From Pseudomonas maumuensis (lineage in GTDB: Bacteria > Pseudomonadota > Gammaproteobacteria > Pseudomonadales > Pseudomonadaceae): a stretch of DNA of 64,000 nucleotides. The notes below the pieces were generated by a model. The model was given only the letters and a program-made list of their open reading frames with translations. It was not told where the DNA came from and ran no database searches. The stretch spans positions 2,852,001 to 2,916,000 of the forward strand of contig NZ_CP077077.1 in the NCBI RefSeq assembly GCF_019139675.1, in the 5' to 3' direction. Made by a program: the position numbers and the translations under genes. Of this stretch, positions 24,865-45,465 are shown one piece after another. How positions within the stretch are numbered: position 1 is the first letter of the stretch; each line of letters begins with the position of its first letter.

Positions 24865-24949
24865 ACTTTTTACCATTCTTGATGGAGCAGGGCATTCCTA
24901 CGGCACCTCATGCAGCGTGTCAACATTTCATAGAAATTGAGGTGACGGC

Positions 24950-25789: not shown

Positions 25790-25836
25790 TCCAAGCTTCT
25801 AATCTGGCCACCCACACCCCGGCAGCTCCATACGAA

Positions 25837-25868: not shown

Positions 25869-25920
25869 GGCGTCCGGATAATGCCACCGGCTCCGGGCGT
25901 CGCTTAATATAGGGTCCATT

Positions 25921-26390: not shown

Positions 26391-26477
26391 CGGCGTCCAG
26401 GTAGTTGGCCTGTTGGCCCGCCGAAGGCGGGTGGGGGTGCTGTTACACCCCCACTTTACCGCGGTTTCCCGCGATCT

Positions 26478-26885
26478 TTAGTCTCCGAGCACGCCTATTC
26501 GCTTGTTTCCTTCGTTGCGCTCACCATTCATGTACTCCTGCATTTCCAGGCCTTGGAGAATGGAACCGATGACATTGAGGGCTATAGGTTTGTGGGTTTC
26601 GTTCAAGCTTCCGAACCGTCGCAGCAGCCCCAACATCTGTATCTCTAACCCTCGCTCTGCATCGCTCAGCAAGATCTCATCGGTGGTACACCCGAAATAC
26701 TTGGCCAGCGCTATGACCTTGTCAGGTGGCGGCAGGTTTTTGCCCTTTTCCCAGCTTGCGACCGTGTTTTCTGCCACGCCGATGGCCTCAGCCACGACTT
26801 TCTGCGACACCTTTTTGGTCGCCCGCTTGTTTCTGATGTTCTCACCGATGCTCATCGCCGTTTCATCTGAGTGCCCATGATTCAT
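26478..26885 (-). CDS. XRE-family phage repressor (copy 2)
   Basis: Identical to 18282-18689. Two repressor genes in the array may double the repressor dose and strengthen immunity. Confidence 0.88.
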   Translation of the reverse strand: MNHGHSDETAMSIGENIRNKRATKKVSQKVVAEAIGVAENTVASWEKGKNLPPPDKVIALAKYFGCTTDEILLSDAERGLEIQMLGLLRRFGSLNETHKPIALNVIGSILQGLEMQEYMNGERNEGNKRIGVLGD

Positions 26886-27015
26886 TGACTATATCTCCTG
26901 TGTTTTTGTACAGCTAATACGTGTATTAGGCTTAGCCACTACGTATTGCTTGCAAAAAGCCTAACACGTGACGTAGCCTTAGCTTCGTAGTGTATTGGGT
27001 TGACAGGGATTTGGG
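26886..27015. promoter_or_regulatory. Divergent phage promoter/operator region (copy 2)
   Basis: Same repeated TACGTGTATTA-like motifs as at 18690-18819, between repressor and replication gene. Confidence 0.6.
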
Positions 27016-28146: not shown

Positions 28147-28373
28147 AAACTGTCAGCTTCCAGGGCGTACAGCTTACATCTGGTCAACGGCACAGGCTGG
28201 AACAACAGCGCCGGATTCAAAGCATGTTGAATCCAGTATTAGCCGATCAAGTTGCTCAGACCATTGCAGTACTTGAGGCTCGAAAAGAGCAAGGCATTCA
28301 ACCTGAGAGGCAGTGGATGACTGTCAGCGATTCACGGGGAACAGTCTCCATTGCTGAGTGGATGGGTTACTAA
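28143..28373 (+). CDS. Small phage protein of unknown function (copy 2)
   Basis: Identical to 19947-20177, with the same ATGA overlap with the replication gene. Confidence 0.7.
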   Translation: MKTVSFQGVQLTSGQRHRLEQQRRIQSMLNPVLADQVAQTIAVLEARKEQGIQPERQWMTVSDSRGTVSIAEWMGY

Positions 28374-28446
28374 ATTAATTCCGCCCAAAAGGGCAAAACT
28401 TAGGTCAGCCATAAGATGCTGACTGCCGATAGGAGAGGGCTGCACC

Positions 28447-28731
28447 ATGTCTAATGCAAATACCATCACCGTTGAAGTCACAGGCCAGTATCGTACCGGC
28501 ACTGCGGCAAAAAGCGGCAAGCCTTACTGCATGTACACTGCATTTGTCCATCTGCCCAATATCCCGTATCCGCAGATGGCTGACTTTTACGCCGAACTCC
28601 CTAATCAGGTACCTCAACCCGGAACTTACGAGTGCGATGTTATTTCCAGCGTTCGTGATTCTCGACTGAGTTTTGAGGTCGATCCTCGTCAAGGTCGCCG
28701 TGTAAGTACTGCTCAGGCTAAAACTGCCTAA
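28447..28731 (+). CDS. Single-stranded DNA-binding protein (copy 2)
   Basis: Identical 94-residue protein to 20251-20535, coupled by one-base overlap to the next gene. Confidence 0.78.
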   Translation: MSNANTITVEVTGQYRTGTAAKSGKPYCMYTAFVHLPNIPYPQMADFYAELPNQVPQPGTYECDVISSVRDSRLSFEVDPRQGRRVSTAQAKTA

Positions 28732-28958
28732 TGTCTGGTTTATTGCATTGCCCTGGAGAGCTTGTAGTTCAGAGCGGTGCATCGCCCGTGTGCTCGGTTG
28801 ATTGGGTGCTTGTTCCATACATTCAACCATTTGACCCTTCACAGCTTGATCCAGTTATTTTGGGGCAAGCATTTGGTGCCGGTTTTACTTTGGTCGGATC
28901 TTTCTTGGTCATGTCCATAGGTGTCCGGGCCTTATTAAATTTCATCAAGCAATCATGA
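28731..28958 (+). CDS. Phage minor coat-like membrane protein (copy 2)
   Basis: Identical to 20535-20762; one membrane helix near the C-terminus. Confidence 0.7.
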   Translation: MSGLLHCPGELVVQSGASPVCSVDWVLVPYIQPFDPSQLDPVILGQAFGAGFTLVGSFLVMSIGVRALLNFIKQS

Positions 28959-28969
28959 GGATTCAAAGT

Positions 28970-29194
28970 ATGTCGATCAAAAAACTGTTCGCTGCCGCTA
29001 CCGTTACCGCAACTGTTGTTGCCGCGCCGGGTGTCTTCGCAGCGGAAGGAACCGGCTGGGATTATTCCCAGATGACCTCTGCTGTAGATTTCAGCACCAT
29101 CACTACGGGTGTTTTGGCTGTCGCCGGTATTCTTGCAGGCGTTTATGCCGGTATCAAAGGCGCTCGCATCGTTCTCGGTTTCCTGCGCAGCTGA
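28970..29194 (+). CDS. Major coat protein precursor (copy 2)
   Basis: Identical to 20774-20998, including signal peptide and ribosome site. Confidence 0.93.
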   Translation: MSIKKLFAAATVTATVVAAPGVFAAEGTGWDYSQMTSAVDFSTITTGVLAVAGILAGVYAGIKGARIVLGFLRS

Positions 29195-29212
29195 GGTTGT
29201 TTGGGATGATCT

Positions 29213-29238
29213 GGGCGTCTTCGGGCGCCCTTTTTTTT
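29213..29238 (+). terminator. Rho-independent terminator after major coat gene (copy 2)
   Basis: Same GGGCG/CGCCC stem and eight-T tract as at 21017-21042. Confidence 0.88.
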
Positions 29239-29258
29239 ACTTTTTTCAGGGGGCATGT

Positions 29259-29333
29259 ATGGATCAGCTTTATTACTTCGCCATGTTCTGTATCGGGTGT
29301 GGATGTTCTTTTGCTGTCTTCTCCGGGTGGTGA
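29259..29333 (+). CDS. 24-residue hydrophobic phage peptide (copy 2)
   Basis: Identical to 21063-21137. Confidence 0.6.
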   Translation: MDQLYYFAMFCIGCGCSFAVFSGW

Positions 29334-29336
29334 ACC

Positions 29337-30383
29337 ATGAGGATTATTTGTTCCATATTTCTCCTGCTTCTATTTTTTCTTCCTTCTGATGAAGCATTTT
29401 CAGCTTGGTCGTGCAACCAAGCTTCTGTATCTACCTATCCAAAAGAATGTGCAGCGGGTGCTGGGTCGGCTACTCCCGAAGCATTTATTGAGGCGGCTAT
29501 GGTCGCTGCTCGCACAGCTAATACTAGCTCTAGGGCCACCGACTATGCAGTCGTCGGCTGCTCTGCTACTGCTGCGGCATCAATGTACAGTTGTAAGTAT
29601 TCATACAAATATTTTGGCTCATTATTTGAAGTGGGTATTTTCATCGAGGGAGCTGCTGAGGCGTCTTGTCCTGAGACGCTTGAGTCACGCGGCTCTAATA
29701 GTTCAGTAACAAAAGCCGGAGGTAAATACTATGTTACGTGGTCTGTTCGCTCTGTTGATTCTGATATATGCCATAACTCTTGCTCTTATCTCGCGGCATC
29801 AGCCGCCGTTAGCAACTGTTACCTGGTTACAGGTTCTACAGATAGTGGCTTTTGTAACTACGTCGTGGGTCTTAATTCCGCGAGTCCTTCATGTGCTTCT
29901 GAGGCCGGATACACCGCCCCAGGGATTGGCGATTCTCTCTCCCCAAACGTTGATCCTGGCGACAGTGGCGGCGATGGCTCCGATGGCGGTGCAGGGGATG
30001 GAGGCAATACAGGCGGCGGCAACGGCGGTGGGTCTGGCAACTCCGGTTTTGATGGCGAGCTGTCTTTCTCTGCTCCTGGAGCACTAGACACTGACGGTGT
30101 AGTCAACAGTGAGCTTAATGCAGCTCACTACAAAACATTTGTAGTCGGCACGGAAGCTGACTTTAACGATTCTGGCATTGGCAAAGCTCTTACTAACTTC
30201 AGCAATAAAATTTCAGGGGCAGGGCAGCAAGGCTCTTGCCCAACGGCTCAAATTCAGTTGTTGGGAACAGTCGTCGCATTCGATGCTCACTGTGATTTGT
30301 TTTCCGGCATTTCGCCAATCCTCACAGTCGTTTTCATGGCAGCGTGGTCGTTGCTAGCTGTTCGTATTTTTCTCTCAGCTTGA
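29337..30383 (+). CDS. Adsorption minor coat protein (copy 2)
   Basis: 348 residues, identical to 21141-22187, with intact glycine-rich linker and C-terminal anchor. Confidence 0.85.
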   Translation: MRIICSIFLLLLFFLPSDEAFSAWSCNQASVSTYPKECAAGAGSATPEAFIEAAMVAARTANTSSRATDYAVVGCSATAAASMYSCKYSYKYFGSLFEVGIFIEGAAEASCPETLESRGSNSSVTKAGGKYYVTWSVRSVDSDICHNSCSYLAASAAVSNCYLVTGSTDSGFCNYVVGLNSASPSCASEAGYTAPGIGDSLSPNVDPGDSGGDGSDGGAGDGGNTGGGNGGGSGNSGFDGELSFSAPGALDTDGVVNSELNAAHYKTFVVGTEADFNDSGIGKALTNFSNKISGAGQQGSCPTAQIQLLGTVVAFDAHCDLFSGISPILTVVFMAAWSLLAVRIFLSA

Positions 30384-30411
30384 TTTTAGCGGCTAAAACA
30401 TAGGGGTCTTC

Positions 30412-30696
30412 ATGTCTGGTTTCGGCGAATGGCTACTCTCAGTTCTTCAACAAATAATTCAGTTCCTTGCTGATATCGTCATAGCTGTAGCTGATTGGCT
30501 TTGGCAGGCCATGTTGAGCCTTATAAGCTCCAATACTATTGTGGGATTGATAGAGGTTGCAGGAGGGCTTTTTGAATCTATTGACCCCTCGGTCTGGTAT
30601 TTTATGTCCATGTTTCAAATCCCTTATGGCATTACTGTAGTGCTCAGCGCTTATGTGCTGCGTTTTCTCATTCGTCGGATTCCTTTCATTGGGTGA
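30412..30696 (+). CDS. Minor coat protein VI-like (copy 2)
   Basis: Identical to 22216-22500. Confidence 0.78.
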   Translation: MSGFGEWLLSVLQQIIQFLADIVIAVADWLWQAMLSLISSNTIVGLIEVAGGLFESIDPSVWYFMSMFQIPYGITVVLSAYVLRFLIRRIPFIG

Positions 30697-30699
30697 TTT

Positions 30700-31731
30700 A
30701 TGGCTATTCATGCTTATGTTGGAAAGCCAGGGCATGGCAAAAGTTATGGCGTTGTTGAACATGTCGTCATTCCTTCTCTTAAGCAGGATCGCCATGTCTT
30801 TACCAACATCCCGTTGGCCGCAGATGAACTCTTGGCTGCATTTGGTGGAAATATCACTCAGCTACCTGAGGACTGGCATAATTTAGAAGATCTTGGCGAG
30901 ATCATTCCACCTGGTGCTGTTGCGATTATTGACGAATGCTGGAGACGCTGGCCTTCGGGGGAGACTATTAATCGTGCAAGGCTTTCAGATAAGTCTCTGC
31001 TTGCGGAGCATCGTCATCGTGTCGATGCAAAAAACAACTCCATGCGTGTTGTTCTTGTCACTCAAGACCTCTCGCAGATAGCTTCATGGGTACGCCAACT
31101 TGTTGAAACCACTTACCGCATCCGTAAGCTTGGAAAGAAGATCTACAAGGTAGACATTTACCAGGGTGCGGTTACTGGCGACTCACCACCCAAGTCAAAA
31201 TTAGTTAGGACTGATGCCGGTACTTTTAAGAAGTCTGTTTATTGCTTTTACAAGTCGGCCACTCAATCTGCATCTGGCTCAGTTGGCGATGAGTCTGCTG
31301 CTGATGGTCGCTCAAGTATTTTTAGATCTTTCGGGCTATGGTCTTGCCTTGCGGCCTTTCTGATTTTTATCGTGCTTGGGTCATACGGCGTTAAGAGCTT
31401 CTTCTCCTCTAACTCTGATCATCCCTCTCCTACAGAACCGGCTCTTCACCAGGTTAAGCAAAAGCCTATTGAGTATCCGCTATCCACTACCTGGCGATTA
31501 GTTGGCTTTGTCCACCCATCTAAGCCTGATCCTAATTCAAGGTCTATCGCTGAACCGTTGGCTCTTGTGTCTGACTCTAGCGGCAACACTCGATACATAT
31601 CATTTAATCACTGCCGCTACACGGATGATTTCACTGAGGTATTTTGCATCGTTGACGGTTCAAAAATTACTAGCTGGTCGCTTAAAAAACCTTTGCCTGT
31701 GATTGGAGGATTGATTGGGGGAGGGGGTTAG
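30700..31731 (+). CDS. Zot-family phage assembly ATPase (copy 2)
   Basis: Identical to 22504-23535; Walker A GKPGHGKSYG intact. Confidence 0.92.
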   Translation: MAIHAYVGKPGHGKSYGVVEHVVIPSLKQDRHVFTNIPLAADELLAAFGGNITQLPEDWHNLEDLGEIIPPGAVAIIDECWRRWPSGETINRARLSDKSLLAEHRHRVDAKNNSMRVVLVTQDLSQIASWVRQLVETTYRIRKLGKKIYKVDIYQGAVTGDSPPKSKLVRTDAGTFKKSVYCFYKSATQSASGSVGDESAADGRSSIFRSFGLWSCLAAFLIFIVLGSYGVKSFFSSNSDHPSPTEPALHQVKQKPIEYPLSTTWRLVGFVHPSKPDPNSRSIAEPLALVSDSSGNTRYISFNHCRYTDDFTEVFCIVDGSKITSWSLKKPLPVIGGLIGGGG

Positions 31732-31781
31732 CGTAGCGCTGCCCCCTTCACCAATTAATCCATTTTCCCCGGACGATTCTC

Positions 31782-33029
31782 ATGACTTCCTCTAATACTT
31801 TTTGCCGCTTCATCATTGCATTGTCCTTCTCGGCCTTTCTCTCGCAGGCTAATGCTGCTGAAACTACCCAGCCATTAACATTTGACTTCCAAACTATTCA
31901 GGTATCCGCTGCACTTCAGCTGCTGGCAGACTATCGTGGGCTTAATCTCGTCCTGGGCGAAGGCATTACCGGCTCGATGTCGATGCGTATGAAGGACGTT
32001 AGTTGGGACGATGCTATTGAATTTGTCACTGGTCCTCGCGGTCTTCTGTACACGGTCGATGGTAAGTTTCTTCGCGTCAGCGCATATCCGCAAACGGACG
32101 ACGATTCCGGCGGTACTTTCGGGACTTTTACAGGTCCGTCTGGCTCGCTGTCTGGCCCAGCTACACCGTCGTATAAGGTCACCGTATTAAAGGTTCGAAA
32201 CATCTCGTCGTCGGATGCCATCAAGGCGTTTCCGCTCGATCAGGGAGAAAGCTTGAACGCCGAGGAAGGCTCTTCAGTTGTTGTTGCACGTATGAGTGAC
32301 GAACGCTTGGCCGATCTGCGTACATATCTGACAGCTGTTGATTACTCGCGTAAGCAGGTGCTGATCGAGGCCCGAATTGTTGAGGTTGACCGATCCTATT
32401 CTAAGAATCTTGGTGTCCAATGGTCTGGCTCTGTTGGTAGCGGTGCCGGTGCTTTGATCGGCAGCGTTCCACTTGGCCTGACACCAGCTGCTATCGCTGG
32501 GTTTGGCATTACATCTAGGTCCTTCAATTTGGATGCTGAGCTGAATGCCATGGAACAGGCGGGTAGGGGTCGTGTAATCTCCAGCCCGCGCGTGATCATG
32601 ACTGATCGGCACCAGGCGAAGATCATCAAAGGTTCTCAGGTTCCATACCAACAGTCGGCCGGTGACGGGGCTACATCCGTCTCTTTTAAAGAGGCTGCGC
32701 TTTCGCTCGATGTCACTCCGCTTGTGAACGATACCGGGGTGCTCCTGGACGTGATCCTTTCAAAGGATGAACCTGATTACTCGAAAGCAATGAACGGGGT
32801 GCCACCGATCAACACCACGTCGCTGACGTCCCGGGTGTTTTCAGGCTTTGGCAAAACTGTGGCGTTGGGAGGCGTGTACTCTGATACGGATAGCACCGTT
32901 GTGCGCAGCGTGCCGGTTTTGGGACAGATCCCAGGGCTTAAATGGCTGTTCAACAGCAGCTCGACAGTGAAGACTGAAACCGAACTGGTTTTGTTTCTGA
33001 CGCCGCGCTTGGTAGACGCCCCTATATAA
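31782..33029 (+). CDS. Phage secretin (copy 2)
   Basis: Identical to 23586-24833. Confidence 0.93.
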   Translation: MTSSNTFCRFIIALSFSAFLSQANAAETTQPLTFDFQTIQVSAALQLLADYRGLNLVLGEGITGSMSMRMKDVSWDDAIEFVTGPRGLLYTVDGKFLRVSAYPQTDDDSGGTFGTFTGPSGSLSGPATPSYKVTVLKVRNISSSDAIKAFPLDQGESLNAEEGSSVVVARMSDERLADLRTYLTAVDYSRKQVLIEARIVEVDRSYSKNLGVQWSGSVGSGAGALIGSVPLGLTPAAIAGFGITSRSFNLDAELNAMEQAGRGRVISSPRVIMTDRHQAKIIKGSQVPYQQSAGDGATSVSFKEAALSLDVTPLVNDTGVLLDVILSKDEPDYSKAMNGVPPINTTSLTSRVFSGFGKTVALGGVYSDTDSTVVRSVPVLGQIPGLKWLFNSSSTVKTETELVLFLTPRLVDAPI

Positions 33030-33060
33030 CTCAACTAAATGAATATTTAGTATAGTTATA
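33025..33060. promoter_or_regulatory. Palindrome upstream of cargo gene (copy 2)
   Basis: Same inverted repeat as at 24829-24864. Confidence 0.7.
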
Positions 33061-33145
33061 ACTTTTTACCATTCTTGATGGAGCAGGGCATTCCTACGGC
33101 ACCTCATGCAGCGTGTCAACATTTCATAGAAATTGAGGTGACGGC

Positions 33146-33985
33146 GTGGCAGAAAAACCCAAAGAACAGATTGATTTTGTCGCCTTGGCTGAGGCTTTCG
33201 CTGAAAAAATCGCGCAATTTGTAAGTATTACGGTGCCTGTCATGGAAGCTGTGGCGAAGGTGATTCCTCAAGTTGCCCTTGAGATTGATGGGTACTTTGA
33301 AGCATACCTGAAGAAGCTGGACGCGCTTCCTGCGCAGTCGAAAGTTGCCATGGGCATTGCTGCTGATAAAGGGTGGTTTTTTGGCTGGGCTACCACCTTG
33401 GAAGACTTGATGCCGCTAATCGAGTCTATTACGAGCATCCCCGAAGAAAAAATTGATCAGTGCATGATCGACTATTATCGCTTCAATTTTGAGGATTTTT
33501 GTAAGCGATTGCAGGACAGCAATCCTTCTAGAGCCGCAGCGATTGCTGCTGCAGCGAGAGCTCATTCTGAACTCGGTGTCGATGGTTTTCTCCTCGCCAT
33601 CCCGGTCTTCATTGCACAGGCTGATGGGTGGCTCTCCGAAATCATTGGCATTCAGATGCCGCTAGGCAGGAAGCGATACCCCAAAGGTAGGCCGAGCGAG
33701 CCCATTACAAACGCAGGCCATATGCTCAAGCAAAGGTTTGAATCTGACCCGGAGTCGCTGGATCTCTTGAATCCTGTTTTCACGCTTCATGATTCTGACT
33801 TCCTCAAAACCTCAGGAGCTCGCAACCAGTCTGGAGCTTTTACGGCACTGAATCGCCACCAGGTTATGCACGGCGAATGTTCTGACTACGGAACTGAAGT
33901 GAACAGCCTGAAAGCGTTCTCGTTTTTGGTTTTTGTGGGCCTGCATCTGCAATCGATCTGTTCGGATCAGGACCTGTTGAGGTGA
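33146..33985 (+). CDS. Phage cargo protein with HEPN-type motif (copy 2)
   Basis: 279 residues, identical to 24950-25789. It ends 47 bp before dif and is therefore the last phage gene before the chromosome. Confidence 0.7.
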   Translation: MAEKPKEQIDFVALAEAFAEKIAQFVSITVPVMEAVAKVIPQVALEIDGYFEAYLKKLDALPAQSKVAMGIAADKGWFFGWATTLEDLMPLIESITSIPEEKIDQCMIDYYRFNFEDFCKRLQDSNPSRAAAIAAAARAHSELGVDGFLLAIPVFIAQADGWLSEIIGIQMPLGRKRYPKGRPSEPITNAGHMLKQRFESDPESLDLLNPVFTLHDSDFLKTSGARNQSGAFTALNRHQVMHGECSDYGTEVNSLKAFSFLVFVGLHLQSICSDQDLLR

Positions 33986-34032
33986 TCCAAGCTTCTAATC
34001 TGGCCACCCACACCCCGGCAGCTCCATACGAA

Positions 34033-34060
34033 GGTGCGCATAATGTATATTATGTTAAAT
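34033..34060. other. dif site (attR), chromosome dimer resolution site
   Basis: XerC arm GGTGCGCATAA (34033-34043), 6-bp centre TGTATA (34044-34049) and XerD arm TTATGTTAAAT (34050-34060). This closely matches the known Pseudomonas dif sequence. The XerC arm comes from the phage and the centre plus XerD arm from the chromosome, so integration rebuilt a working dif on the right side. It marks the replication terminus. Confidence 0.92.
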
Positions 34061-34103
34061 GACGTATTATGGGAGGTGACCTCCTGAGTCGATCACCTGT
34101 GGT
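34053..34103 (+). repeat. 51-bp near-repeat beside dif (left copy)
   Basis: Begins in the dif XerD arm (TGTTAAAT) and runs on through CGTATTATG…GAGGTGACC…GTCGATCACCTGTGGT. It matches 42352-42402 at 47 of 51 positions. Part can fold (AGGTGA … TCACCT). Confidence 0.85.
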
Positions 34104-34636: not shown

Positions 34637-37600
34637 TCACTCTGCGATCCGCTTTATCGCTTTTTCGATACGCTGACGGCCCGCGTGGGCAAGCTTACCG
34701 ACCCCGGCTTCCTTGGCTACTGCGTAAACCAGCCCCTCTCCTACGTGACCATGCTTAGTCATTTCATCTACTAAGGCACCTAGTTCGGGCAAGCAGATTT
34801 CAGCAAGTGGGCGAATGGCATCGTCATCACCGGGCCTACGAAAGACAACGTTCATATCCGACTCGAGATGAGTCGGCCAGTAGAATGTTCCTGCCTGCTC
34901 CTCTTCATGAGATCGGAATCGTGCCCGCGCTATTTGATCGACGCGATCACGAATGCGCGAGCCCGTTCTGACCCAGCCATGAGCACGCGCGATACGCCGC
35001 GCAAGCGCCATATCGAGCACAGGCCCCTCCTCTGCCACCACATGGGCAATCATCTGTTCCAAGGTAGCCGTGTAGCTCGCTTCGAAGAATCTGTCTGGAT
35101 CAACCGCTTTCACAGCCTCGGCAGGGTCTGCTTCCTTGTAAACCAGGTGCTCTACTGGTACATAAGAAATCACGGTATCTTCTGCTGCTTGAGCCGCGGC
35201 AGCTCTGGCGTATTTCAACTCTGGCATTGCGCCAGACGGATCATTGGCTCCAGCAGCTGAAGTCGAAGCTACAACAGCAACCTGATCCACAACCTCAATG
35301 ACTTCAGCCATGGCAGCATCGACTTTTAGGCGCTCAGCCTCATGGGCAGCATCGATGACCGCCTGCTTGGCCCTCGATTCGGCAAGCAGTTCGGTGAGAC
35401 GTTGATGCACCTTTTCTGCGGTTCCCACGGCATCAACCCACCAGTCGGTCGACCAGATCCTAACGATCTCCCAGCCAAGTCCACGCAGCACAAACTCACG
35501 CAGCTTGTCGCGATCACGCGCAGTCGCACTGCGGTGATAGGTAGCCCCATCGCACTCGACACCGGCTAGGAAGCGCCCTGGAGCATCAGGGTGCACAACC
35601 CCCAAGTCTACTCGGAAGGAAGAGACACCAATCTGGGTATGGATCTGCCAACCCTTCTTGGCCAAGGCAGCAGCGACTGCCTCTTCAAATGGGCTATCGA
35701 ATCCACCCACACTACCGAAATTAGCTTCAGCCAAGGCCTGCGGCCCACGTTCAGCAAATTCGAGGAAATGCTTCAGGTCACGCACCCCGACGGCTTGCGT
35801 CCGAGCAAGGTCAATGTGCTCTGGGCGGAGGGTCGAGAACAGCACCAGTTCTTGGCGAGCACGCGTAATTGCAACGTTCAGTCGGCGCTCGCCACCCGGA
35901 CGGTTCATCGGGCCGAAGTTCATAGACATCACGCCGGCAGCGTCTTTTCCGTAGGTGGTCGAGAAATAGATGATGTCCCGCTCGTCGCCCTGGACACTTT
36001 CCAGGTTCTTCACGAACACAGGTTCGAGCTCAGACTCAGCGAAGTACGAGTCGAGCGACGGATCCCTCCGGCATGCCTCATCGAGCATGTCCATGATGAG
36101 CTTCTGCTGCTCACCGTTGAACGTGACCACTCCCACAGTACGACGGCTCTCACGGAAGGCCGGCGACTGAAGGCGAGCAACAAGGTCAGCAACTAGGGCT
36201 CTTGCTTCAATCAGGTTGGTACGTGAGCCGCCCTTGTCGTAAACACCAGCAACTGGACACAGCCGCACAGCCTTATCAGCCGTGAATGGCGAAGGGAACG
36301 TCACCAGCTTCGAGCCGTAGTAACGCTGGTTGGAGAACGCGATCAGGCTCTCGTGACGGCTGCGATAATGCCAGTTCAGGTTGCGCATCGGCAGGTTCGC
36401 GCTGATGCATTCATCCAGGATGCTCTCGAGATCCGCTTCGACATCCTCATCATCAGCAGTGGACTCAGCCCGGTCAAAGAACGAGGTCGGCGGCAGCTGT
36501 TTCGGGTCACCTACCATCACGACCTGCTTTCCTCGCGCCATCGCACCAATTGCATCCCAGACCGGAATCTGAGAGGCCTCATCGAAGATGACGAGGTCGA
36601 ACGGGGTTGAGGCTGGCGGCAGGTATTGGGCAATCGAGAGCGGGCTCATCAGCAAGCAAGGCGTCAGCTTGGTGAGGGCTTCTGGTGCCCGGGTCATCAA
36701 CTCACGCAATGGAATATGCTTGGTTTTCTTGCCCATCTCATGACGCAGCAAGCCCCACTCTGAAGAGCGGCTCACGCTGTCCTGACTTGGCAGGTCAGCA
36801 CACAGCCGAGCACGGAGCCAGTCCTTCGTCAGCTCGGTGAACTTGTCATCCAGCGCTCGGAAATCGCGAATACGCTGTTCATGCTCAACGCTGACAAATG
36901 TCCGGATCACTTCCTCGTTATCGACAGTGGTATTCAGCCACCAGCGAGCATAATTCACCTCGAAGACGCGGCGGACTTTTCCGGAGGTGATGGCTCCGCT
37001 TTCCATGGCCTGGACAATTGGGGCGAGGCCAACGGCGAAGGCCTCATCGCGCACCTTCCTCCAGGCACACCATGCCTTGAGTCGCGCCTCGGACGAAACT
37101 ACGGTTTCGCAATTTTTCTTGAGGTCATTCAACGAAAGGTGTGAGGTCTCATCAGCACCGGCCTCGGTGAAGTGACCGATCGAAGTCAGATGCGATGAAC
37201 GCTCCTGCAACAACGCAAGCTTTTCACGCAGGCCAACGCCTGCGAGAGCTATCGCACCTTCAGGCTCTAGCAAAGCGTTGCCATCGCCCAAGAGCGTTTG
37301 AAGGGGAGCCTTGTAAGCTGCAATCTGCTCCGGGTTCAGCGCGAGCTTCGCAACAGCAGTTGCTACCTGCCCTTGGAACACCACAGCCTGACGTGCAATC
37401 TCAAGCTTGGTCTTCAGGTCACTCCACACCGGTACCAGTTCTCGCAGGTCAGCCAGGTCAGACAGATCACGTTCAACTGCTGCCCGCTCCTTCAACAGAT
37501 CGAAGTCACCTTTCAGCAAGGCTCCACAGCGGCCCTCCTGCACTTCTGGGTGATCATCAACAAAGTGACCACGTTCTTCGATATCCCGACGCTCAGCCTG

Positions 37601-40600
37601 GAAGCGCAGCGCTGCAGTAAGGAGTTCAATGTTAGTGTCCTTGCCGCACCAAAGCTGCTGAGTGCTCGAGCCAAGGTCGGACAAGGCAGCCATATCGCTA
37701 TCAAGGCGAGTCAGCGTGCGAAGCCGTTGCAGTTCTTCCTTCAATGCATCACCCAGCTGGCCTTGCTCGACCAACTGGAGCCCATCATCGATCCAGTCCG
37801 AGTCTGATTGCTGGAGCCGAATGACCTCTTGAAGTTTGATCGACGTCGAAAGCTTCTCAGCGTCAGACTTAGAACCTTGCCAAACGGCAACGCACTCGTG
37901 CCCTGGCTTAAGCTCATCAATAGCGCGGCGCACGGCACGTATTGCTGCCCAGGTGGCTAAATCCTTACCGTGATCGGCCTCGCCTGCAGTGGTTTGAGTC
38001 GGGGCTAGCAAACCTGCGATACGACGCTTACCGAACCAGGACTTTGGCCAGAACGATTCCTCAGCCTCCTTCCACTCTCTCAGCAACAGATCGATGTCGA
38101 GCGATTCGATCGTATCGCCATAGGTCGCACTGAGCTGCTGCTTGAGCTCTACTATTTGGCTAAGCAGTGCCACCGCCTGAGCAAGCACATCGGTGACACT
38201 TTCCGGCCAGGCCGGGCTGAGCTCACCGAAAATGGTGCGACGTTGCTGCAGCAGGTCAATACCCTGCTTAGCATCCGCCACAACGCGAGAAGTCCAGAGC
38301 GGCGAAAGCTTAGCGTTTAGCTCTCGATGTTGTTCAACCCACGCACAGCCATCGCTCAGCCGTTGAGAAATGGAGCGGGCTTCAGGCCGCAACGCGAAGC
38401 GCCAATCCTGTCCTGCTGCCGCGGGTAGTGCCTGGGAAAGGACTGACAGCCCCTCCAGTGCATCCGGGGTGTATTCCGAAGCTAGGAGCCCAGCCAACTC
38501 AACGAACCGATCAGCCGCACACTGGACATCCAAGACGGTAGGTAACACATCACGAGCCGCCTGCACGAACTGTTGTTGCCAATGAGGTGACCATTCCGCT
38601 TGGCCAACTGCGGACAACGCATTACCAGCAAGCAGGCTGTAGCCCACAGCCTGCGCGTTCACTTCGAGGCGATCGCCCAATTCACGAAGCTCAAGCATGG
38701 CCTTGTGGTCATGCGTCTCAGGTGACGCCCAGCCAACAGGGGCAACAGCTTCATCGACACCCGAAGTGACCGTGCCAATCGCATCGTAGATGGTGTAACC
38801 GTTGCGATGGCGCCGGTGCAGTCGCTCGACGTAAATATTCAGGCTGTCGCGCAGCGTTGCGAGACGCTGAGCCTCAACCTCCCATGCAGCGGAATCGACC
38901 TGCCCTTTTGCCTCCCAAGCGGACTGCAGCTGGGCCAGCACATCAGTTTTCCGAGCCTTGCTTGAGTGCAACTCGAGGCAAAACTCACCCAAGCCAATCT
39001 CACGCAAGCGACGGTACACGACATCCAGCGCGGCGATCTTCTCCGAGACGAACAGCACGCGACGCCCTTGGGCAATCGACTGGGCGATCATGTTGGAAAT
39101 CGTCTGGCTCTTGCCAGTACCGGGTGGGCCGATGAGCACAAAGTCTTTGCCCTTGGCTGCAGCCATCACTGCAGCCAACTGAGATGAGTCAGACGGCAGC
39201 GGGCAGAAAACGTCTGTCGGGCCGTAGTCGCGATCCAGCGATTGCGCCTCTGGGAACGGTGTATCCGAAACGAACGAATCGCGTGGGGTATCCAGAAGGT
39301 GCTGAACGACTGGGCTCTGCCGCAGGTGCTCAGCGTTCTCGGCCAGATCCTTCCACATGAGGTATTTGGCAAACGAGAACATCGACAGCACGACGTCTTC
39401 TCTCAACTCCCAACCTGGGATGTCCTTGATGGCATGGCCAACCTTGTTCCAAATACCGGCGATATCAAGGCCAGAATCGTCCCGAGGCAATTCGTGCTCC
39501 AGCGACCCCAAGCCCAATTCGAAATCCTGTCGAAGCATCTCAATCAGGGTGGGGTTGAAGCGCGGCTCATCATCGTGAAGCACCATGGTGAATCCGGAGC
39601 GAGCGCTCTTGCGCTCCAGCGTAACCGGTATCAAAACCAATGGCGCCTTGTACTTCTGCCCTGCTCTGTCCTCGCGTGTCCAACTCAGGAAGCCAATGGC
39701 CAAGAAGAGCGTATTGGAGCCGCCTTCCTGCAGCGCTGTGCGAGCACCTCGGTACAGTTCGGTGAGTCGAACATCCATCTCGTTGGATGTCAGCGCAACA
39801 AACACCTCTCTGCGATTGAGGGCATCCTCGGCATGCCGGCGACGAACATCCTCACGCTCACGTTGCTCATACAGAGCGCGCTCCCGCGGATCAGCACCAT
39901 CCATGAGGTCTGGGCGGGTGAGCAGCTTCAGCGACTGACCACTGGCCAATACGTCCTCGAGGGCTCCTGGATCTGGGGACTCCAGCTTCAGCGCCCGCTT
40001 GCCTGTCTTGAAGTTCAAGAGGTTGTTTCGAAGCGAGAGATCCAGCAGTTTGCGCTGCCACCGGCCAAGTCGGTCTGCTGGGTCGAGCTTGGAAAGGTCT
40101 TCGACCACTACCTCGTGGATCTCATCAGGGATTCCAGCCCCGTCCTCGACCAGGAGCGTCGGAGAGTCCACCGGAACCTCATCAGCAATCCGAGCGATCT
40201 GAGCCTCAGCACTTGCGAGTGGCTTGATCCGTTGCAGTCGAGCCCGGCGAATGTCGAGCAGCATTTCAAATTCGCTGTCCGCGTCTTCGGCAATCTGCTT
40301 CTCACCTCTCTCGACTGCGTAAGAGAAGGTTGGGACAGGATTCTGCGTACTGAGTGTCGTTTCAAATAGAACCAGTTCCCGCAGCTTCACCCGCTTGCGT
40401 ACCGCCGTCACATCATCGACAAGGGCAGTAGTGAACTCCTCCGGCTTCATCCACAACCCCGCGAAAGCGTGACCGCGGGTGAACACGATGACTGGGTTCA
40501 GCCCGATTTGCTCCAGGGCAGCGCAGAATAGCAGGGTAAGATCCATGCAGGTTGCCAAACCAGTATCGGCAATCTGGCTTGGGCTTCGCACCTTTTGACC

Positions 40601-41263
40601 TGACTGTTCAAAACTTGCCGGCGGCAATGCATAGTCGAGCTTCATCCGTGCGACGGCGCTCCAGACCGCAGACGCCAGCTGCCAAGCTCGCTTCGCGCCA
40701 CCCTCGTAACCATCCAGCGATGAGGACAGTTCACTTTGGCGAAGCAACTCAGCCGTCTGCTTCAAGAGTCGTTCAACTGCCGGATCATTCGGCTGCACGA
40801 AGGCAGCCGTCATGTCAGGAATATGCCGCAACCCACCCCACTGATTTCGGGGCAGAAGGTCTACGACTTGCTCAAAACGGGAGACCTCCTTTCTGCCGCT
40901 CTCGGCTTCCTTGTCGTCCGCCTCAAGCACGAAGGTGAATGTCGACAGCTCAGCTTCGGTCAGACGACTAAGCAACGGGCCGTCCAAGACCAGATCAAGA
41001 CCAGGAATGATCCGGAAGCTATCTGCCCCAATCTCGTCGATTCGCCATACCTTGGCCTTGAACACCTCAGGTTCTGAGGTCAATGTCAGGGTCGCATTAA
41101 CGAAACGGTCTTCGGTCTCGTTCGCTATACGAAGTTCGCGAATTACGGGAATGGCGTTCTGGAAGTCGGCAAGGTTCAGCTTCGCCACAAGGGTGGCAAG
41201 GATCTTAACTTCTTTGGGTGGGATTTCTTCTTGAGCAGCGGGGGGCTGAACGATGTCGTCCAT
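34637..41263 (-). CDS. Giant DUF4011 - SF1 helicase - Vsr-like nuclease - DUF3320 protein (Hhe-like, putative anti-phage defence)
   Basis: 2208 residues from ATG 41263, with AAGGAAGG six bases upstream. Order of parts: a transglutaminase-like region (about 190-275; TCMDLTLLFCAAL with Cys ~240, then RGHAFAG), DUF4011 (about 400-560; RKLLDLSLRNNLLNF), and an SF1 UPF1-like helicase. The helicase has Walker A GPPGTGKSQT near 710, Walker B VIFDEASQIP near 1560 and motif VI RRLNVAITRARQELV near 1800. A Vsr/DUF559-type nuclease follows (about 1857-1945; FRVDLGV, ECDGATYH), then DUF3320 (about 2055-2130). Proteins with this layout occur in defence islands, where single-gene DUF4011-helicase-Vsr systems have been called Hhe; assignment to that exact type is tentative. 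The reading frame is intact. Confidence 0.85.
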   Translation of the reverse strand: MDDIVQPPAAQEEIPPKEVKILATLVAKLNLADFQNAIPVIRELRIANETEDRFVNATLTLTSEPEVFKAKVWRIDEIGADSFRIIPGLDLVLDGPLLSRLTEAELSTFTFVLEADDKEAESGRKEVSRFEQVVDLLPRNQWGGLRHIPDMTAAFVQPNDPAVERLLKQTAELLRQSELSSSLDGYEGGAKRAWQLASAVWSAVARMKLDYALPPASFEQSGQKVRSPSQIADTGLATCMDLTLLFCAALEQIGLNPVIVFTRGHAFAGLWMKPEEFTTALVDDVTAVRKRVKLRELVLFETTLSTQNPVPTFSYAVERGEKQIAEDADSEFEMLLDIRRARLQRIKPLASAEAQIARIADEVPVDSPTLLVEDGAGIPDEIHEVVVEDLSKLDPADRLGRWQRKLLDLSLRNNLLNFKTGKRALKLESPDPGALEDVLASGQSLKLLTRPDLMDGADPRERALYEQREREDVRRRHAEDALNRREVFVALTSNEMDVRLTELYRGARTALQEGGSNTLFLAIGFLSWTREDRAGQKYKAPLVLIPVTLERKSARSGFTMVLHDDEPRFNPTLIEMLRQDFELGLGSLEHELPRDDSGLDIAGIWNKVGHAIKDIPGWELREDVVLSMFSFAKYLMWKDLAENAEHLRQSPVVQHLLDTPRDSFVSDTPFPEAQSLDRDYGPTDVFCPLPSDSSQLAAVMAAAKGKDFVLIGPPGTGKSQTISNMIAQSIAQGRRVLFVSEKIAALDVVYRRLREIGLGEFCLELHSSKARKTDVLAQLQSAWEAKGQVDSAAWEVEAQRLATLRDSLNIYVERLHRRHRNGYTIYDAIGTVTSGVDEAVAPVGWASPETHDHKAMLELRELGDRLEVNAQAVGYSLLAGNALSAVGQAEWSPHWQQQFVQAARDVLPTVLDVQCAADRFVELAGLLASEYTPDALEGLSVLSQALPAAAGQDWRFALRPEARSISQRLSDGCAWVEQHRELNAKLSPLWTSRVVADAKQGIDLLQQRRTIFGELSPAWPESVTDVLAQAVALLSQIVELKQQLSATYGDTIESLDIDLLLREWKEAEESFWPKSWFGKRRIAGLLAPTQTTAGEADHGKDLATWAAIRAVRRAIDELKPGHECVAVWQGSKSDAEKLSTSIKLQEVIRLQQSDSDWIDDGLQLVEQGQLGDALKEELQRLRTLTRLDSDMAALSDLGSSTQQLWCGKDTNIELLTAALRFQAERRDIEERGHFVDDHPEVQEGRCGALLKGDFDLLKERAAVERDLSDLADLRELVPVWSDLKTKLEIARQAVVFQGQVATAVAKLALNPEQIAAYKAPLQTLLGDGNALLEPEGAIALAGVGLREKLALLQERSSHLTSIGHFTEAGADETSHLSLNDLKKNCETVVSSEARLKAWCAWRKVRDEAFAVGLAPIVQAMESGAITSGKVRRVFEVNYARWWLNTTVDNEEVIRTFVSVEHEQRIRDFRALDDKFTELTKDWLRARLCADLPSQDSVSRSSEWGLLRHEMGKKTKHIPLRELMTRAPEALTKLTPCLLMSPLSIAQYLPPASTPFDLVIFDEASQIPVWDAIGAMARGKQVVMVGDPKQLPPTSFFDRAESTADDEDVEADLESILDECISANLPMRNLNWHYRSRHESLIAFSNQRYYGSKLVTFPSPFTADKAVRLCPVAGVYDKGGSRTNLIEARALVADLVARLQSPAFRESRRTVGVVTFNGEQQKLIMDMLDEACRRDPSLDSYFAESELEPVFVKNLESVQGDERDIIYFSTTYGKDAAGVMSMNFGPMNRPGGERRLNVAITRARQELVLFSTLRPEHIDLARTQAVGVRDLKHFLEFAERGPQALAEANFGSVGGFDSPFEEAVAAALAKKGWQIHTQIGVSSFRVDLGVVHPDAPGRFLAGVECDGATYHRSATARDRDKLREFVLRGLGWEIVRIWSTDWWVDAVGTAEKVHQRLTELLAESRAKQAVIDAAHEAERLKVDAAMAEVIEVVDQVAVVASTSAAGANDPSGAMPELKYARAAAAQAAEDTVISYVPVEHLVYKEADPAEAVKAVDPDRFFEASYTATLEQMIAHVVAEEGPVLDMALARRIARAHGWVRTGSRIRDRVDQIARARFRSHEEEQAGTFYWPTHLESDMNVVFRRPGDDDAIRPLAEICLPELGALVDEMTKHGHVGEGLVYAVAKEAGVGKLAHAGRQRIEKAIKRIAE

Positions 41264-41587
41264 GCGCAACCTTCCTTGTTGTGATGCTCAAGGGAGTGCC
41301 GGACTGACCGGCCGCGAAGGGATCCTCTTGAGCTGATGGCGGGATGATAGCGCTTCCTGCTTCAGACGTAATGATCCTTTGGTCGTTCGGTGATGCTTAA
41401 TCTGTTCAGCTAAGCAGCGATCTGCAGCAAAGCGCAGATGCATCCTGACTTGCCACAGACCTATCAGCTCTATCGGGGGTAAAAAATTAGTATCAAAGGT
41501 TTTTCAAAAGTGGCACAAAACTGCAAAAAGCTACATCAAGACTGACTAGCTCAAGGAAAGTCCAGCCACCTAAAACATTCCAGCGAA

Positions 41588-42351: not shown

Positions 42352-42402
42352 TGTTAAATTGCGTATTATGAGAGGTGACCTTCTGAGTCGATCACCTGTG
42401 GT
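42352..42402 (+). repeat. 51-bp near-repeat of dif-flanking sequence (right copy)
   Basis: Matches 34053-34103 at 47 of 51 positions, beginning with the XerD-arm string TGTTAAAT. The sequence left of it (CATCGCCCACT) does not resemble a XerC arm, so it is not a full dif. It marks the right edge of the 8.3-kb segment carrying the defence gene. Confidence 0.85.
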
Positions 42403-42419: not shown

Positions 42420-42581
42420 ATCGGCCCACCCAACCAGACCCCGTCCGCCCCGGCCTCCAAGGGATCCTTCAACGTCAAGGGCCAGCCTCTGATCATGTCG
42501 CCGGATGTCGCGCTCGCAACGTTTCGCTCCATCGCCCTGGGCACGCTTTACATGGAAGGATTCATCGTATGGAAACCCTAA
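42420..42581 (+). pseudogene. 3' fragment of a broken gene overlapping the carrier-protein start
   Basis: An open frame of 53 codons closed upstream by TAA and lacking a sensible start. It encodes …GSFNVKGQPLIMSPDVALATF… and ends in GTLYMEGFIVWKP. Its stop lies 10 bp into the ACP gene, the coupling expected of an operon neighbour. It begins 18 bp after the right 51-bp repeat, so the gene was probably cut by the rearrangement there. Family not recognised. Confidence 0.5.
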
Positions 42582-42826
42582 CTCACATGGACCTGACCCG
42601 AGTGGTCGACGAAGTTCTGCACACGCTCGCCACTGCCAAGCAAGTCAGCCCGACATCGCCGCTGGACATGATCGTATTTGACTCTCTGGACCAGATGCGG
42701 CTGCTGGTCGCCATCGAAGACCGTGTGCAATTCGTCTTCGACGATGCCGCGCTGCAGCCATTTTGTCTGGACAGCCGCGAGGCGCTGGTCGACAGCGTGA
42801 TCGCCATGATGAACCAAGCGGGATAA
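42569..42826 (+). CDS. Acyl carrier protein (stand-alone)
   Basis: 85 residues from ATG 42569 (GGAAGGA upstream). The phosphopantetheine attachment motif is FDSLDQM with Ser39, followed by the conserved helix (RLLVAIEDRVQFVFDDAAL). It is not the fatty-acid AcpP, because it lacks the near-invariant acidic pattern around DSL. The next gene encodes a carrier-protein-specific amino acid ligase, so it probably carries an aminoacyl thioester. Confidence 0.85.
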   Translation: METLTHMDLTRVVDEVLHTLATAKQVSPTSPLDMIVFDSLDQMRLLVAIEDRVQFVFDDAALQPFCLDSREALVDSVIAMMNQAG

Positions 42827-42831
42827 TCGAC

Positions 42832-43737
42832 ATGTTTGCACTGCAGGATTTACAGGCTCGTCGCCTGCTCTCGGTTGTCGCTTCCGGCAATGGTCTGATC
42901 GGCTACCGTTTTTGCGACACCCTTCACCAGGCCTACGAGGCCTTGGACCAGGCACTGATCAACACCATGAGCCGTCATATCAGCGCCACGGCGCACTCTT
43001 GCACGACGCTGATCGAGCGACAGGCACTGGAGAAGATCGGTTTTTTCAACAAACTGCCCTGCATCCCGATGACCGCCAGCCCGCATGCGTGTAGCGATCA
43101 CTCTGAAAAGGAGCACGAGGGCGACTGGATATTGAGCCCCTCGACCTGCTATCACACATTCACCCACCTGGCCGGCAGCACAGAGCGTTGGGATCTCAAG
43201 TGCTTCACGGCGCTGGGCCATTGCCACCGGTACGAGCCCGTCCTCGAGGAGCCGACACGCCTGGCCAGTTTCACAATGCGTGAATTCGTACTGCTGGGTC
43301 AGCAATCGCAAGTCGAACACATGTGTCAGGTGCTGTTCGACAGTGGCGTGGCATTGATCAGACGCCTGGTGCCTTCGACCTTCGTGAAGCGGGCCAGCGA
43401 TGTCTTTTATGGTGAGTCGGCCCAGGTTACCCGCAAGGTTCAACTGGCGCTGGGCGTCAAGCTCGAAGCAGTGATTCCCTGGCGCCAGCGCCAGGTCAGC
43501 GTCGGATCGCGCAACCTGCACCGCGACCTGTTCACGCAGGCATTCAAGATCGGTCCGCAAGCCCCTGAGCCCGCCATGCACTCAGCCTGCGTAGCCTTCG
43601 GCATGGAACGCCTGCTGCTGTCGTTGCTCGCACAGATCGGCGACCCCGACCGCCTACTTGCTCACTTACACGAGGTACTCGGTGCCCCGCCTGCCGGCCA
43701 ACAGGCAAAGGAGTTCGAGCATGCAGCGCTGGTTTGA
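42832..43737 (+). CDS. Amino acid:[carrier protein] ligase, class II aminoacyl-tRNA synthetase-like
   Basis: 301 residues, the catalytic core of an atypical seryl-tRNA synthetase without the N-terminal tRNA-binding coiled coil. Motif 2 is FTMREF (Arg150, Glu151) and motif 3 is AFGMERLLL (257-260 GMER). Zinc-site candidates are Cys106, Glu151 and Cys253, the Cys-Glu-Cys pattern of this family. Characterised relatives from rhizobia activate glycine or alanine and load it onto a neighbouring carrier protein instead of tRNA. The ACP gene ends 5 bp upstream, fitting that role. The amino acid used here and its destination are unknown. Confidence 0.85.
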   Translation: MFALQDLQARRLLSVVASGNGLIGYRFCDTLHQAYEALDQALINTMSRHISATAHSCTTLIERQALEKIGFFNKLPCIPMTASPHACSDHSEKEHEGDWILSPSTCYHTFTHLAGSTERWDLKCFTALGHCHRYEPVLEEPTRLASFTMREFVLLGQQSQVEHMCQVLFDSGVALIRRLVPSTFVKRASDVFYGESAQVTRKVQLALGVKLEAVIPWRQRQVSVGSRNLHRDLFTQAFKIGPQAPEPAMHSACVAFGMERLLLSLLAQIGDPDRLLAHLHEVLGAPPAGQQAKEFEHAALV

Positions 43738-45121
43738 CGCCGCAGTGGCGAAACGTATCGCCGTTGTCTCGTTTCCGTTGATGGGGACGATGGTCGGTAA
43801 CCTGCTGATGATGCTCGTCGACCGGTTATGCCTGGCGCATTACTCACCGGCTACGTTGGCGGCATCGGGGCCGGCGGTCTTTACCAGCATGGCAATCATA
43901 GCGTTCTTCTGCAGCACCGTCGGGGTTACACGCTCTTTCGTCGCCCAGGCAAACGGCCGCTCGGGACTCGAAGAAGCCCGGGGTGAAGGTGCATTGGGAT
44001 TATTCCTCGGACTGGCCTGCGGTGCGCTGCTGTTCATGGCCGCCCCGCTGATTGCGTTGATTCCGCAGTTGAGCTCGCGTCCCGCGCAAATCGTCAGCCT
44101 TGAGTCGCAGTACATGCTCTGGGCAGCGATTTTCGGTGGCGTGATGGCGATCAATACGGCGTTGTCATCGTTCTTCAATGGCGTGGGACGCACCCGTGAA
44201 ACACTGATGGTCGGCATTGTGGGTCAGGTGGTCGACTCGATCTTTACCGTGGGCCTGGTGTTCGGCAAGTTCGGGTTACCGGAAATGGGTATGGCCGGCG
44301 CGGCTATCGGGACCCTGATCGGAACGTTGTCCATGCTGGGCTGCTACGCGGTCATGCTGCCCCGCGAGGTCTGTCGCGAGCTCCTGAATATCTTCATCGC
44401 CCGCAGTGAACACCTGTGGAGTCGCCTGGCATTCCGTCTGCGCCGAGGCGTACCCAGCGGTTTGTCGGCAGGGGTGGATCAGCTCGGCAACACGGCGTTC
44501 ATCTGGATCGTCGCGGTACTGGGCACCAGTGCGCTGGCGGCCAACAACGTCAACTTGACGATCAACTACCTGGGCATCATCCCGATCATAGGGCTGGGTA
44601 TCGGCTGCAGCATCCTGTGCGCCACGGCGGCAGGAAAACAGCAATATGCCGAGCTGGCGACGATAGTGCGGGTAACCGTGGTCATAGAGTTGATCTACGT
44701 CCTGCTGGTGTCCACCGTCCAGGTGACGATGCCGCAAGTCTTGCTCAAGGCTTTTGGCGACCTGGGGCACAACCAGGAAATCATTGACCTGGCCATCGAT
44801 ACGCAGCGCGTCCTGTGGACGTTTTCCGGTGCATTTGCTTTTTCGATGACCGGTGCCGCCGTTCTCGAAAGCATCGGTATGGCCAGGTTTTCACTGGTCG
44901 TGCGGCTGCTGCTGATGTGGTTCATGAGCATCCCGCTGATCTATTACGTCGCCATGGGCAATCGTGATGACCCGTCGTCGCTGGTGACCTGTTGGATCAT
45001 CGGTTCGGTATTCGAACTCGCCATCGGGCTCATTTACTTCTGGCGGATCGCCAAAGCCGTACGAGGTGCCGAAAACCGCCTGCAGGTCAACCATCGTCCC
45101 GCCACGGAGGACGCCCTGTGA
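43721..45121 (+). CDS. MATE-family efflux transporter
   Basis: 466 residues with about twelve membrane helices; typical MATE segments include VSFPLMGTMVGNLLMMLVDRL near the start and RGVPSGLSAGVDQL in the middle repeat. I chose ATG 43721 (AAAGGAG 7 bp upstream), giving a 17-bp overlap with the ligase gene. MATE pumps use Na+ or H+ gradients to export small molecules. Coupling to the carrier-protein genes suggests it exports the product of this cluster (inference). Confidence 0.88.
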   Translation: MQRWFDAAVAKRIAVVSFPLMGTMVGNLLMMLVDRLCLAHYSPATLAASGPAVFTSMAIIAFFCSTVGVTRSFVAQANGRSGLEEARGEGALGLFLGLACGALLFMAAPLIALIPQLSSRPAQIVSLESQYMLWAAIFGGVMAINTALSSFFNGVGRTRETLMVGIVGQVVDSIFTVGLVFGKFGLPEMGMAGAAIGTLIGTLSMLGCYAVMLPREVCRELLNIFIARSEHLWSRLAFRLRRGVPSGLSAGVDQLGNTAFIWIVAVLGTSALAANNVNLTINYLGIIPIIGLGIGCSILCATAAGKQQYAELATIVRVTVVIELIYVLLVSTVQVTMPQVLLKAFGDLGHNQEIIDLAIDTQRVLWTFSGAFAFSMTGAAVLESIGMARFSLVVRLLLMWFMSIPLIYYVAMGNRDDPSSLVTCWIIGSVFELAIGLIYFWRIAKAVRGAENRLQVNHRPATEDAL

Positions 45122-45465
45122 ACATGAATGAAATTGATGCCCAGACCAACCGACCGATGGAGGCGCCGTTATATCGACGGGTGCTGGGACGTCCACCGAC
45201 AAAAGACTTCGCGACACAGGGCTTCTGCGAAGGCACATTGCTGTTCAGCATCAGAGAAGCGTTCTACAAAGCCATCTTCTCCTTTTGCCAACGCCACGTG
45301 TACGCGGCTGATCTGATCGTGGAGCTGTCGGCCGACCCGGGACACTGCGCAATCCACAGCCTGACGCCTGATCTGGAATCCTGCCTCGCCCCCTTCACTG
45401 TGGATGTTCGGTATACGTTTGATGAACAGCGCATCTACAGCGCCGTCTCTTTGCGCGAGCGCTGA
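45118..45465 (+). CDS. C-terminal half of an EntD/PcpS-type phosphopantetheinyl transferase
   Basis: 115 residues from GTG 45118 (GGAGGA upstream), with its start overlapping the MATE stop (GTGA). The segment LLFSIREAFYKAIF (residues 41-54) matches the PPTase motif FSxKExxYKA, with Lys-to-Arg in the KE pair. The N-terminal half of the family, including the GxDxE metal motif, is absent, although the gene start and coupling look intact. It may be a reduced enzyme, a non-catalytic partner, or a decayed remnant. In a full system it would prime the ACP at 42569. Confidence 0.65.
   Translation: MNMNEIDAQTNRPMEAPLYRRVLGRPPTKDFATQGFCEGTLLFSIREAFYKAIFSFCQRHVYAADLIVELSADPGHCAIHSLTPDLESCLAPFTVDVRYTFDEQRIYSAVSLRER

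Follow-up and report, generated by a model that had tools for sequence, protein, structure and literature searches.

The closest described relatives of the locus reported here come from several kinds of pathway. Bll0957-type ligases, known from rhizobia, load amino acids onto carrier proteins with a class II tRNA synthetase core, and what such ligases charge their acyl carrier proteins (ACPs) for is an open question, as an initial annotation of this locus said. The cysteine-protease-like enzymes CcbD/LmbD, CtaG, AziU2-U3, and BtrH act in natural-product pathways; CcbD transfers carrier-bound aminoacyl groups to an amine, forming the amide directly. The donor is charged by an adenylation (A) domain in the lincosamide pathways and by an ATP-grasp ligase in butirosin biosynthesis. 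Reducing type II polyketide synthases (PKSs) are represented by the ishigamide and aryl-polyene systems and by the cispentacin pair AmcF-AmcG. Here, we analyzed a 64,000-nucleotide stretch of the Pseudomonas maumuensis chromosome (NZ_CP077077.1, positions 2,852,001 to 2,916,000, forward strand), called the window below, in which genes for an ACP, a tRNA-synthetase-like ligase, and a MATE efflux pump lie side by side. The initial annotation, made from the sequence alone, took them for a compact cluster. This was not borne out: the cluster is incomplete on either side, and its fourth open reading frame (ORF) is a deletion fusion. From sequence comparisons, the locus is probably what remains of a larger biosynthetic cluster, close to the replication terminus, after deletions had removed DNA on the left and on the right, and the chemistry that we describe for the fuller clusters is inferred.

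Both ends of the locus are truncated

The coordinates confirm that the ACP, ligase, MATE, and phosphopantetheinyl transferase (PPTase)-like ORFs lie end to end at 42569-45465 and are tightly packed, with 5 bp between ACP and ligase and a 17-bp overlap of ligase and MATE (Table 1). The order of carbamoyltransferase end, ACP, ligase, and MATE is identical in Pseudomonas sp. NFACC02. The first 13 bp of the ACP gene also belong to the carbamoyltransferase end, and an identical 13-bp overlap can be read from the NFACC02 coordinates. Because NFACC02 has the same gene order and the same overlap, the arrangement in the window is not due to chance. A scan for sigma-70-like promoters found 0 sites, against 2.3 expected by chance. 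The sequence shows uninterrupted frames for the ACP, the ligase, and the MATE pump; only the tail of the carbamoyltransferase is left, and everything from codon 5 of a BtrH-like gene to the middle of an NRPS-borne PPTase domain is missing.

The initial annotation suggested that the broken gene at the left end might encode the missing aminoacyl-acceptor enzyme. That role is ruled out by its identity in tblastn as a carbamoyltransferase tail, which matches the NFACC02 protein at 62% and the Photorhabdus protein at 68% over 37 amino acids (aa). A search of the window's own genome places the carbamoyltransferase match at this tail (E = 9.7e-8). The NFACC02 parent protein matches PF02543 and PF16861; of such a full-length two-domain protein (NodU/CmcH type), only the last 38 residues are left in the window. 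The genome has one other carbamoyltransferase, of 37% identity, which is common to two congeners discussed below, G236 and G354.

At the right end, the MATE reading frame stops just inside the following gene, which is BtrH-like in G236 and G354. The window shares the first five codons of this gene with both genomes, in alignment with the BtrH-like starts in their relic loci (L086 and L087); beyond 45132 its DNA no longer matches either of them. The PPTase-like ORF runs over 45124-45465, or from a GTG at 45118 with a 4-bp overlap onto MATE. Its match to PF01648 has an E value of only 0.21. In tblastn, starting at the GIDxE motif and reaching the domain end, it matches the PPTase of the second nonribosomal peptide synthetase (NRPS2) of NFACC02 (34% over 109 aa; E = 5e-16), whose C-terminal end consists of 4PPT_N and ACPS. 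HSD and GIDxE are the PPTase motifs; the window ORF picks up the domain at the ID of the latter, reads IDAQ there, and lacks the first half of the domain. Since divergence after codon 5 of the BtrH-like gene is followed by alignment with a PPTase domain, the ORF at 45118-45465, on these alignments, is a deletion joint in which five BtrH/CcbD-like codons are fused to the second half of an NRPS-borne PPTase. The homology to PPTases noted in the initial annotation stands, but the ORF is a deletion fusion. We also considered the half protein as a working partner, which is ruled out by the absence of the first half and of any relative of the 113-aa fusion product among database proteins of 0.55 to 1.75 times its length.

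Table 1. Features of the relic and its left border (window coordinates)
Feature	Coordinates	Strand	Evidence
Carbamoyltransferase 3' end (last 38 residues plus stop; left-truncated)	42465..42581	+	tblastn
Acyl carrier protein, 85 aa	42569..42826	+	PF00550; NFACC02 ACP match
Amino acid:[carrier protein] ligase-like protein, 301 aa, class II synthetase core, frame intact	42832..43737	+	Bll0957, NF005479, 56 relatives
MATE family efflux pump, 466 aa, frame intact	43721..45121	+	PF01554; NFACC02 MATE
BtrH/CcbD-like gene, initial five codons; left side of deletion joint	45118..45132	+	Alignment with L086, L087
PPTase domain, second half (GIDxE motif onward), fused in frame to the five preceding codons	45133..45465	+	tblastn, NFACC02 NRPS2
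Left border of relic: 92% second copy of the sequence (34053-34103) at the right arm of the dif-like site	42352..42402	+	

Fuller clusters occur in other bacteria

We scanned named genomes with an alignment of the ligase subfamily, which gave 129 confirmed stretches. The best 80 of these were kept and make up 78 loci; some lie on contigs as short as 3.5 kb, where the absence of a neighbor partly reflects missing DNA. A close ligase was found in 10 loci (L008 to L017), seven from Photorhabdus and one each from Pseudomonas sp. NFACC02, Xenorhabdus griffiniae, and Kutzneria buriramensis. The initial annotation had staked its reading on the ligase neighborhood recurring in other genomes, and in these 10 fuller loci it does. 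The NFACC02 cluster begins with a short-chain dehydrogenase/reductase (SDR), a CADD-like protein with a C-terminal ACP, a chain length factor (CLF)-like protein, a FabA-like dehydratase, and a FabF-like ketosynthase (KS). These are followed by the carbamoyltransferase, ACP, ligase, MATE, the BtrH-like protein, and an ATP-grasp protein, and then by an aminotransferase like glutamate-semialdehyde aminomutase, a 172-aa protein, and an NRPS with condensation, adenylation, and thiolation domains (C-A-T). An MbtH-like ORF (assigned by eye), an NRPS of C-A-T-thioesterase-PPTase architecture, and an A domain complete the order.

By tblastn with the NFACC02 proteins, the KS, CLF-like protein, dehydratase, carbamoyltransferase, and BtrH-like protein occur in all 10 close loci, the Kutzneria carbamoyltransferase match being only 73 aa at the locus edge, and the SDR occurs in 9. 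In the 68 distant loci (L018 to L085), some of them short, tblastn found no CLF-like protein, dehydratase, carbamoyltransferase, MATE, or BtrH-like protein; there were one KS, one SDR, one aminotransferase, three matches to the ACP-bearing protein, and several NRPS matches. Profile searches of 85 sequences agreed with this picture for the ligase (85/85), the CLF-like protein (10/85), and the BtrH-like protein (12/85). The BtrH-like matches were the 10 close loci and relics L086 and L087; the window was not matched. A small exported product, as the initial annotation proposed, is plausible for the fuller clusters. In the open-license literature, as far as it was accessible, we found no description of these clusters, and the main text of PMC9177418 is without the terms sought. 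By eye, the Photorhabdus fuller cluster lies directly upstream of luxCDABE-like genes in L008 (5159-18366) and L012.

The carrier protein and the ligase

The window ACP scores 20.4 bits against Pfam PP-binding (PF00550), just below the cutoff of 20.8, has the serine in its DSL motif, and matches the NFACC02 ACP at 57% over 74 aa (E = 1e-18). The kinship of the ligase to rhizobial carrier-protein ligases, claimed in the initial annotation, was borne out by a phmmer match to Bll0957 in the PDB (E = 2e-17, residues 93 to 287). Cys106, Glu151, and Cys253, which we take to be the zinc site, and Arg260 in the motif 3 region align with the same residues in Bll0957. All four are invariant in 30 aligned sequences (the window ligase and 29 of its 56 relatives), so that the zinc site residues named in the initial annotation hold across the alignment. 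Like Bll0957-type ligases, the window ligase also has an adjoining ACP gene. It differs in length (301 aa versus a chain of 346 residues) and in that its subfamily is located in PKS/carbamoyltransferase clusters; the distant ligase loci match at 26 to 36% in the best segment. The match to NF005479, amino acid--[ACP] ligase (E = 7e-32), reaches 110.7 bits. Because this is below the cutoff of 357, the window ligase is, by sequence score, a relative in a separate subfamily and not an equivalog.

That subfamily comprises 56 proteins at an E value of ≤1e-3 among 2,008 candidates, the final 10 or so being distant. The nearest relative is from Pseudomonas allokribbensis (P0001; 95%), and others come from Photorhabdus, Xenorhabdus, Streptomyces, Amycolatopsis, Micromonospora, Chitinibacter, and metagenomes. 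In a quick tree with long-branch warnings, a 23-row subfamily forms one side of a branch with an SH-aLRT value of 88.

Relics in other Pseudomonas genomes and selection on MATE

The ligase was found in 7 of 398 genomes of the genus: the window's own, two with fragments (G236 and G354), and four with distant ligases. It was present in 4 of 298 genomes of an overlapping genus draw and in 1 of 144 relatives, which was the window's own genome. BtrH-like sequences, all fragments, occurred in 3 of the 398 genomes (G096, G236, and G354), and a CLF-like match occurred in 1, weak and covering 73 positions inside an 872-aa frame. Thus, the 398-genome draw holds no intact BtrH-like and no convincing CLF-like copy, and searches of the window's own genome found neither gene elsewhere. 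What remains in both G236 and G354 is the C-terminal portion of the ligase, a MATE gene with its frame unbroken, and just the beginning of the BtrH-like gene, which in G236 ends, by eye, where a transposase-like ORF starts.

The window MATE protein matches PF01554 in two stretches (96.9 bits; cutoff, 24.9), scores 129.4 against TIGR00797, under the cutoff of 147.4, and is 55% identical to the NFACC02 MATE over 451 aa. Compared with G236, its nonsynonymous rate (dN) is 0.08, its synonymous rate (dS) is 1.2, and dN/dS is 0.065; compared with G354, dN/dS is 0.061. These estimates are rough, since dS in both comparisons is 1.2 to 1.3 and near saturation. Between G236 and G354, dN is 0.011, dS is 0.053, and dN/dS is 0.20. 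These last values, together with a MATE gene that is intact in all three relics while the ligase and BtrH-like genes of G236 and G354 are broken, would fit selection on MATE as a stand-alone pump, with ACP and ligase as mere passengers. We consider this possible but doubtful. The ligase and ACP frames are intact in the window too, the purifying signal may partly predate the breakage, and the 3.2 kb of G096 that was analyzed contains a BtrH-like fragment with no MATE or ligase match.

A BtrH/CcbD-like enzyme is the candidate acceptor

If the locus derives from a fuller cluster, the missing acceptor is most likely the BtrH/CcbD-like enzyme, reduced to five codons in the window. Over about 300 residues, its NFACC02 homologue has a predicted fold like those of CcbD and CtaG, at only 10 to 15% identity to the CcbD/CtaG/BtrH group. 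C22, H130, and D148 are invariant in 25 rows and follow the order of C11, H128, and D144 of CtaG, whose variants are in the PDB; the comparison is by order, with the residues unsuperposed. When the BtrH-like profile was run against the sequences of solved structures, it gave five matches, the best with an E value of 0.08, which we judged to be chance. Full-length BtrH-like proteins are also known from Pseudomonas helmanticensis (P0065) and a group of 13 sequences (P0077), both of which pass the PF14399 cutoff.

In the fuller clusters, the ligase would adenylate an amino acid and load it onto an ACP. The BtrH-like enzyme would then take the aminoacyl group onto its putative catalytic cysteine (Cys-His-Asp) and pass it to an amine or hydroxyl of the product. 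In contrast to the lincosamide pathways, the donor would be charged by the synthetase-like ligase. A reducing type II PKS set (KS, CLF-like protein, dehydratase, SDR, and ACP) would assemble the product, which would be carbamoylated; in NFACC02 and Xenorhabdus, it would also be extended by NRPSs and exported through the MATE pump. The FabF-like KS matches AmcF at 156 bits (cutoff, 325), and ishigamide CLF and ApeC are the best fold matches of the CLF-like protein, whose model reaches a pLDDT of only 69. The PKS-side ACP weakly matches cispentacin AmcB. A cispentacin-type cluster, considered for the AmcF match, was not adopted; the KS is below the AmcF cutoff and the CLF-like protein has no NCBIfam match. 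The ligase, BtrH-like enzyme, and carbamoyltransferase are additions relative to the ishigamide, aryl-polyene, and cispentacin systems.

Alternatively, the type II PKS could use the aminoacyl-ACP as its starter unit, with KS and CLF carrying out the condensation and the BtrH-like enzyme offloading the finished chain. The presence of KS, CLF-like protein, and dehydratase in all 10 loci would suit this scheme, as would the Photorhabdus loci, where only the PKS-side ACP is intact; an AmcH-like starter loader was not noticed by eye in L008 and L012, with no search made. Nevertheless, we consider it unlikely, given that in NFACC02 and Xenorhabdus the PKS-side ACP is accompanied by another ACP next to the ligase and that CcbD makes its amides directly from carrier-bound aminoacyl groups.

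Chromosomal surroundings

The relic is flanked by the second copy of a dif right-arm sequence and, on the other side, by a chromosomal gene at 45666. In G170, this gene (92.5% identity) follows the same large upstream gene. Because G170 has different DNA between the same flanking genes, the site, from this comparison, is a variable one. DNA shared with G216 ends at 42377. The window (2.85 to 2.92 Mb of 5.76 Mb) would lie at the terminus if the record begins at the origin, as the dif-like site also suggests. This 28-mer at 34033-34060 agrees at 26 of 28 positions with the dif consensus, and the 92% copy of its right arm lies 8.3 kb further on. A dif-targeting element may occupy the interval between the two. 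Two tandem copies of a filamentous-phage prophage-like element (genes assigned by eye; 99.95% identical over 8.2 kb) at 17629-34045 end at the dif-like site. The DNA of a 2,210-aa gene at 34637-41269 has counterparts of about 98.8% identity in G216 and G170. Since this exceeds the 92.5% of the chromosomal stretch further right in G170, the gene is probably mobile.

Weighing the evidence and implications

A number of observations weigh against a relic of the cluster described. The ACP, ligase, and MATE frames are open, and P0001 was seen without its surroundings, so that a working remainder of the cluster in the window is possible. The size of the right deletion was judged from NFACC02 (an interval of about 12 kb) and not from the window's own lineage. 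Of the 10 fuller loci, just 2 have MATE, which is absent from all seven Photorhabdus loci, and just 2 have an intact ligase-side ACP (NFACC02 and Xenorhabdus). The longest ORF between carbamoyltransferase and ligase in the Photorhabdus loci is 45 aa, partial ACP matches in L012 and L017 cover 36 to 37 residues, and no ligase-side ACP was recognized in the Kutzneria locus. Because no intact ligase-side ACP was recognized in them, the Photorhabdus and Kutzneria clusters either use a different ACP or are also decaying. L013 gave no SDR match and, for the carbamoyltransferase, one of 73 aa at the locus edge. The NFACC02 BtrH-like protein scores 21.2 against PF14399 (cutoff, 29.7), CcbD is described with Cys-His-Glu and not Cys-His-Asp, and the ligase tree backs the subfamily only moderately. 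Separately, L008, L011, and L016 have only ORFs of 41 to 45 aa at the position of the ligase-side ACP (about 9830-9990), with a DSL-containing stretch in L016.

A streamlined working mini-cluster, in which the ligase loads the ACP, a host enzyme encoded elsewhere releases or moves the aminoacyl group, and MATE exports the product, would draw on the close spacing of intact frames and on the low MATE dN/dS against G236 (with dS near saturation), yet it is improbable given the truncated genes on either side, a fusion ORF that has no relatives of similar length, a genome with no BtrH-like gene remaining, and differently broken relics in G236 and G354. If the locus is a relic, the whole pathway could not run in this genome; at most, aminoacyl-ACP would be formed without an acceptor enzyme, and the MATE pump may be retained for another use.

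We tentatively propose that Pseudomonas, Photorhabdus, Xenorhabdus, and actinomycetes share an undescribed cluster family in which a tRNA-synthetase-like ligase replaces the NRPS adenylation domain. The ligase would supply charged ACP to a CcbD/CtaG-type cysteine condensing enzyme that aminoacylates a carbamoylated reducing type II polyketide, with several losses in Pseudomonas and three relics reduced to a pump and scraps. The window illustrates how easily a relic can be mistaken for a tidy operon. For this ligase subfamily, the fuller neighborhoods point to one candidate acceptor with solved relatives. With that candidate named, the question of what the charged ACP is used for is therefore reducible to a three-protein assay.

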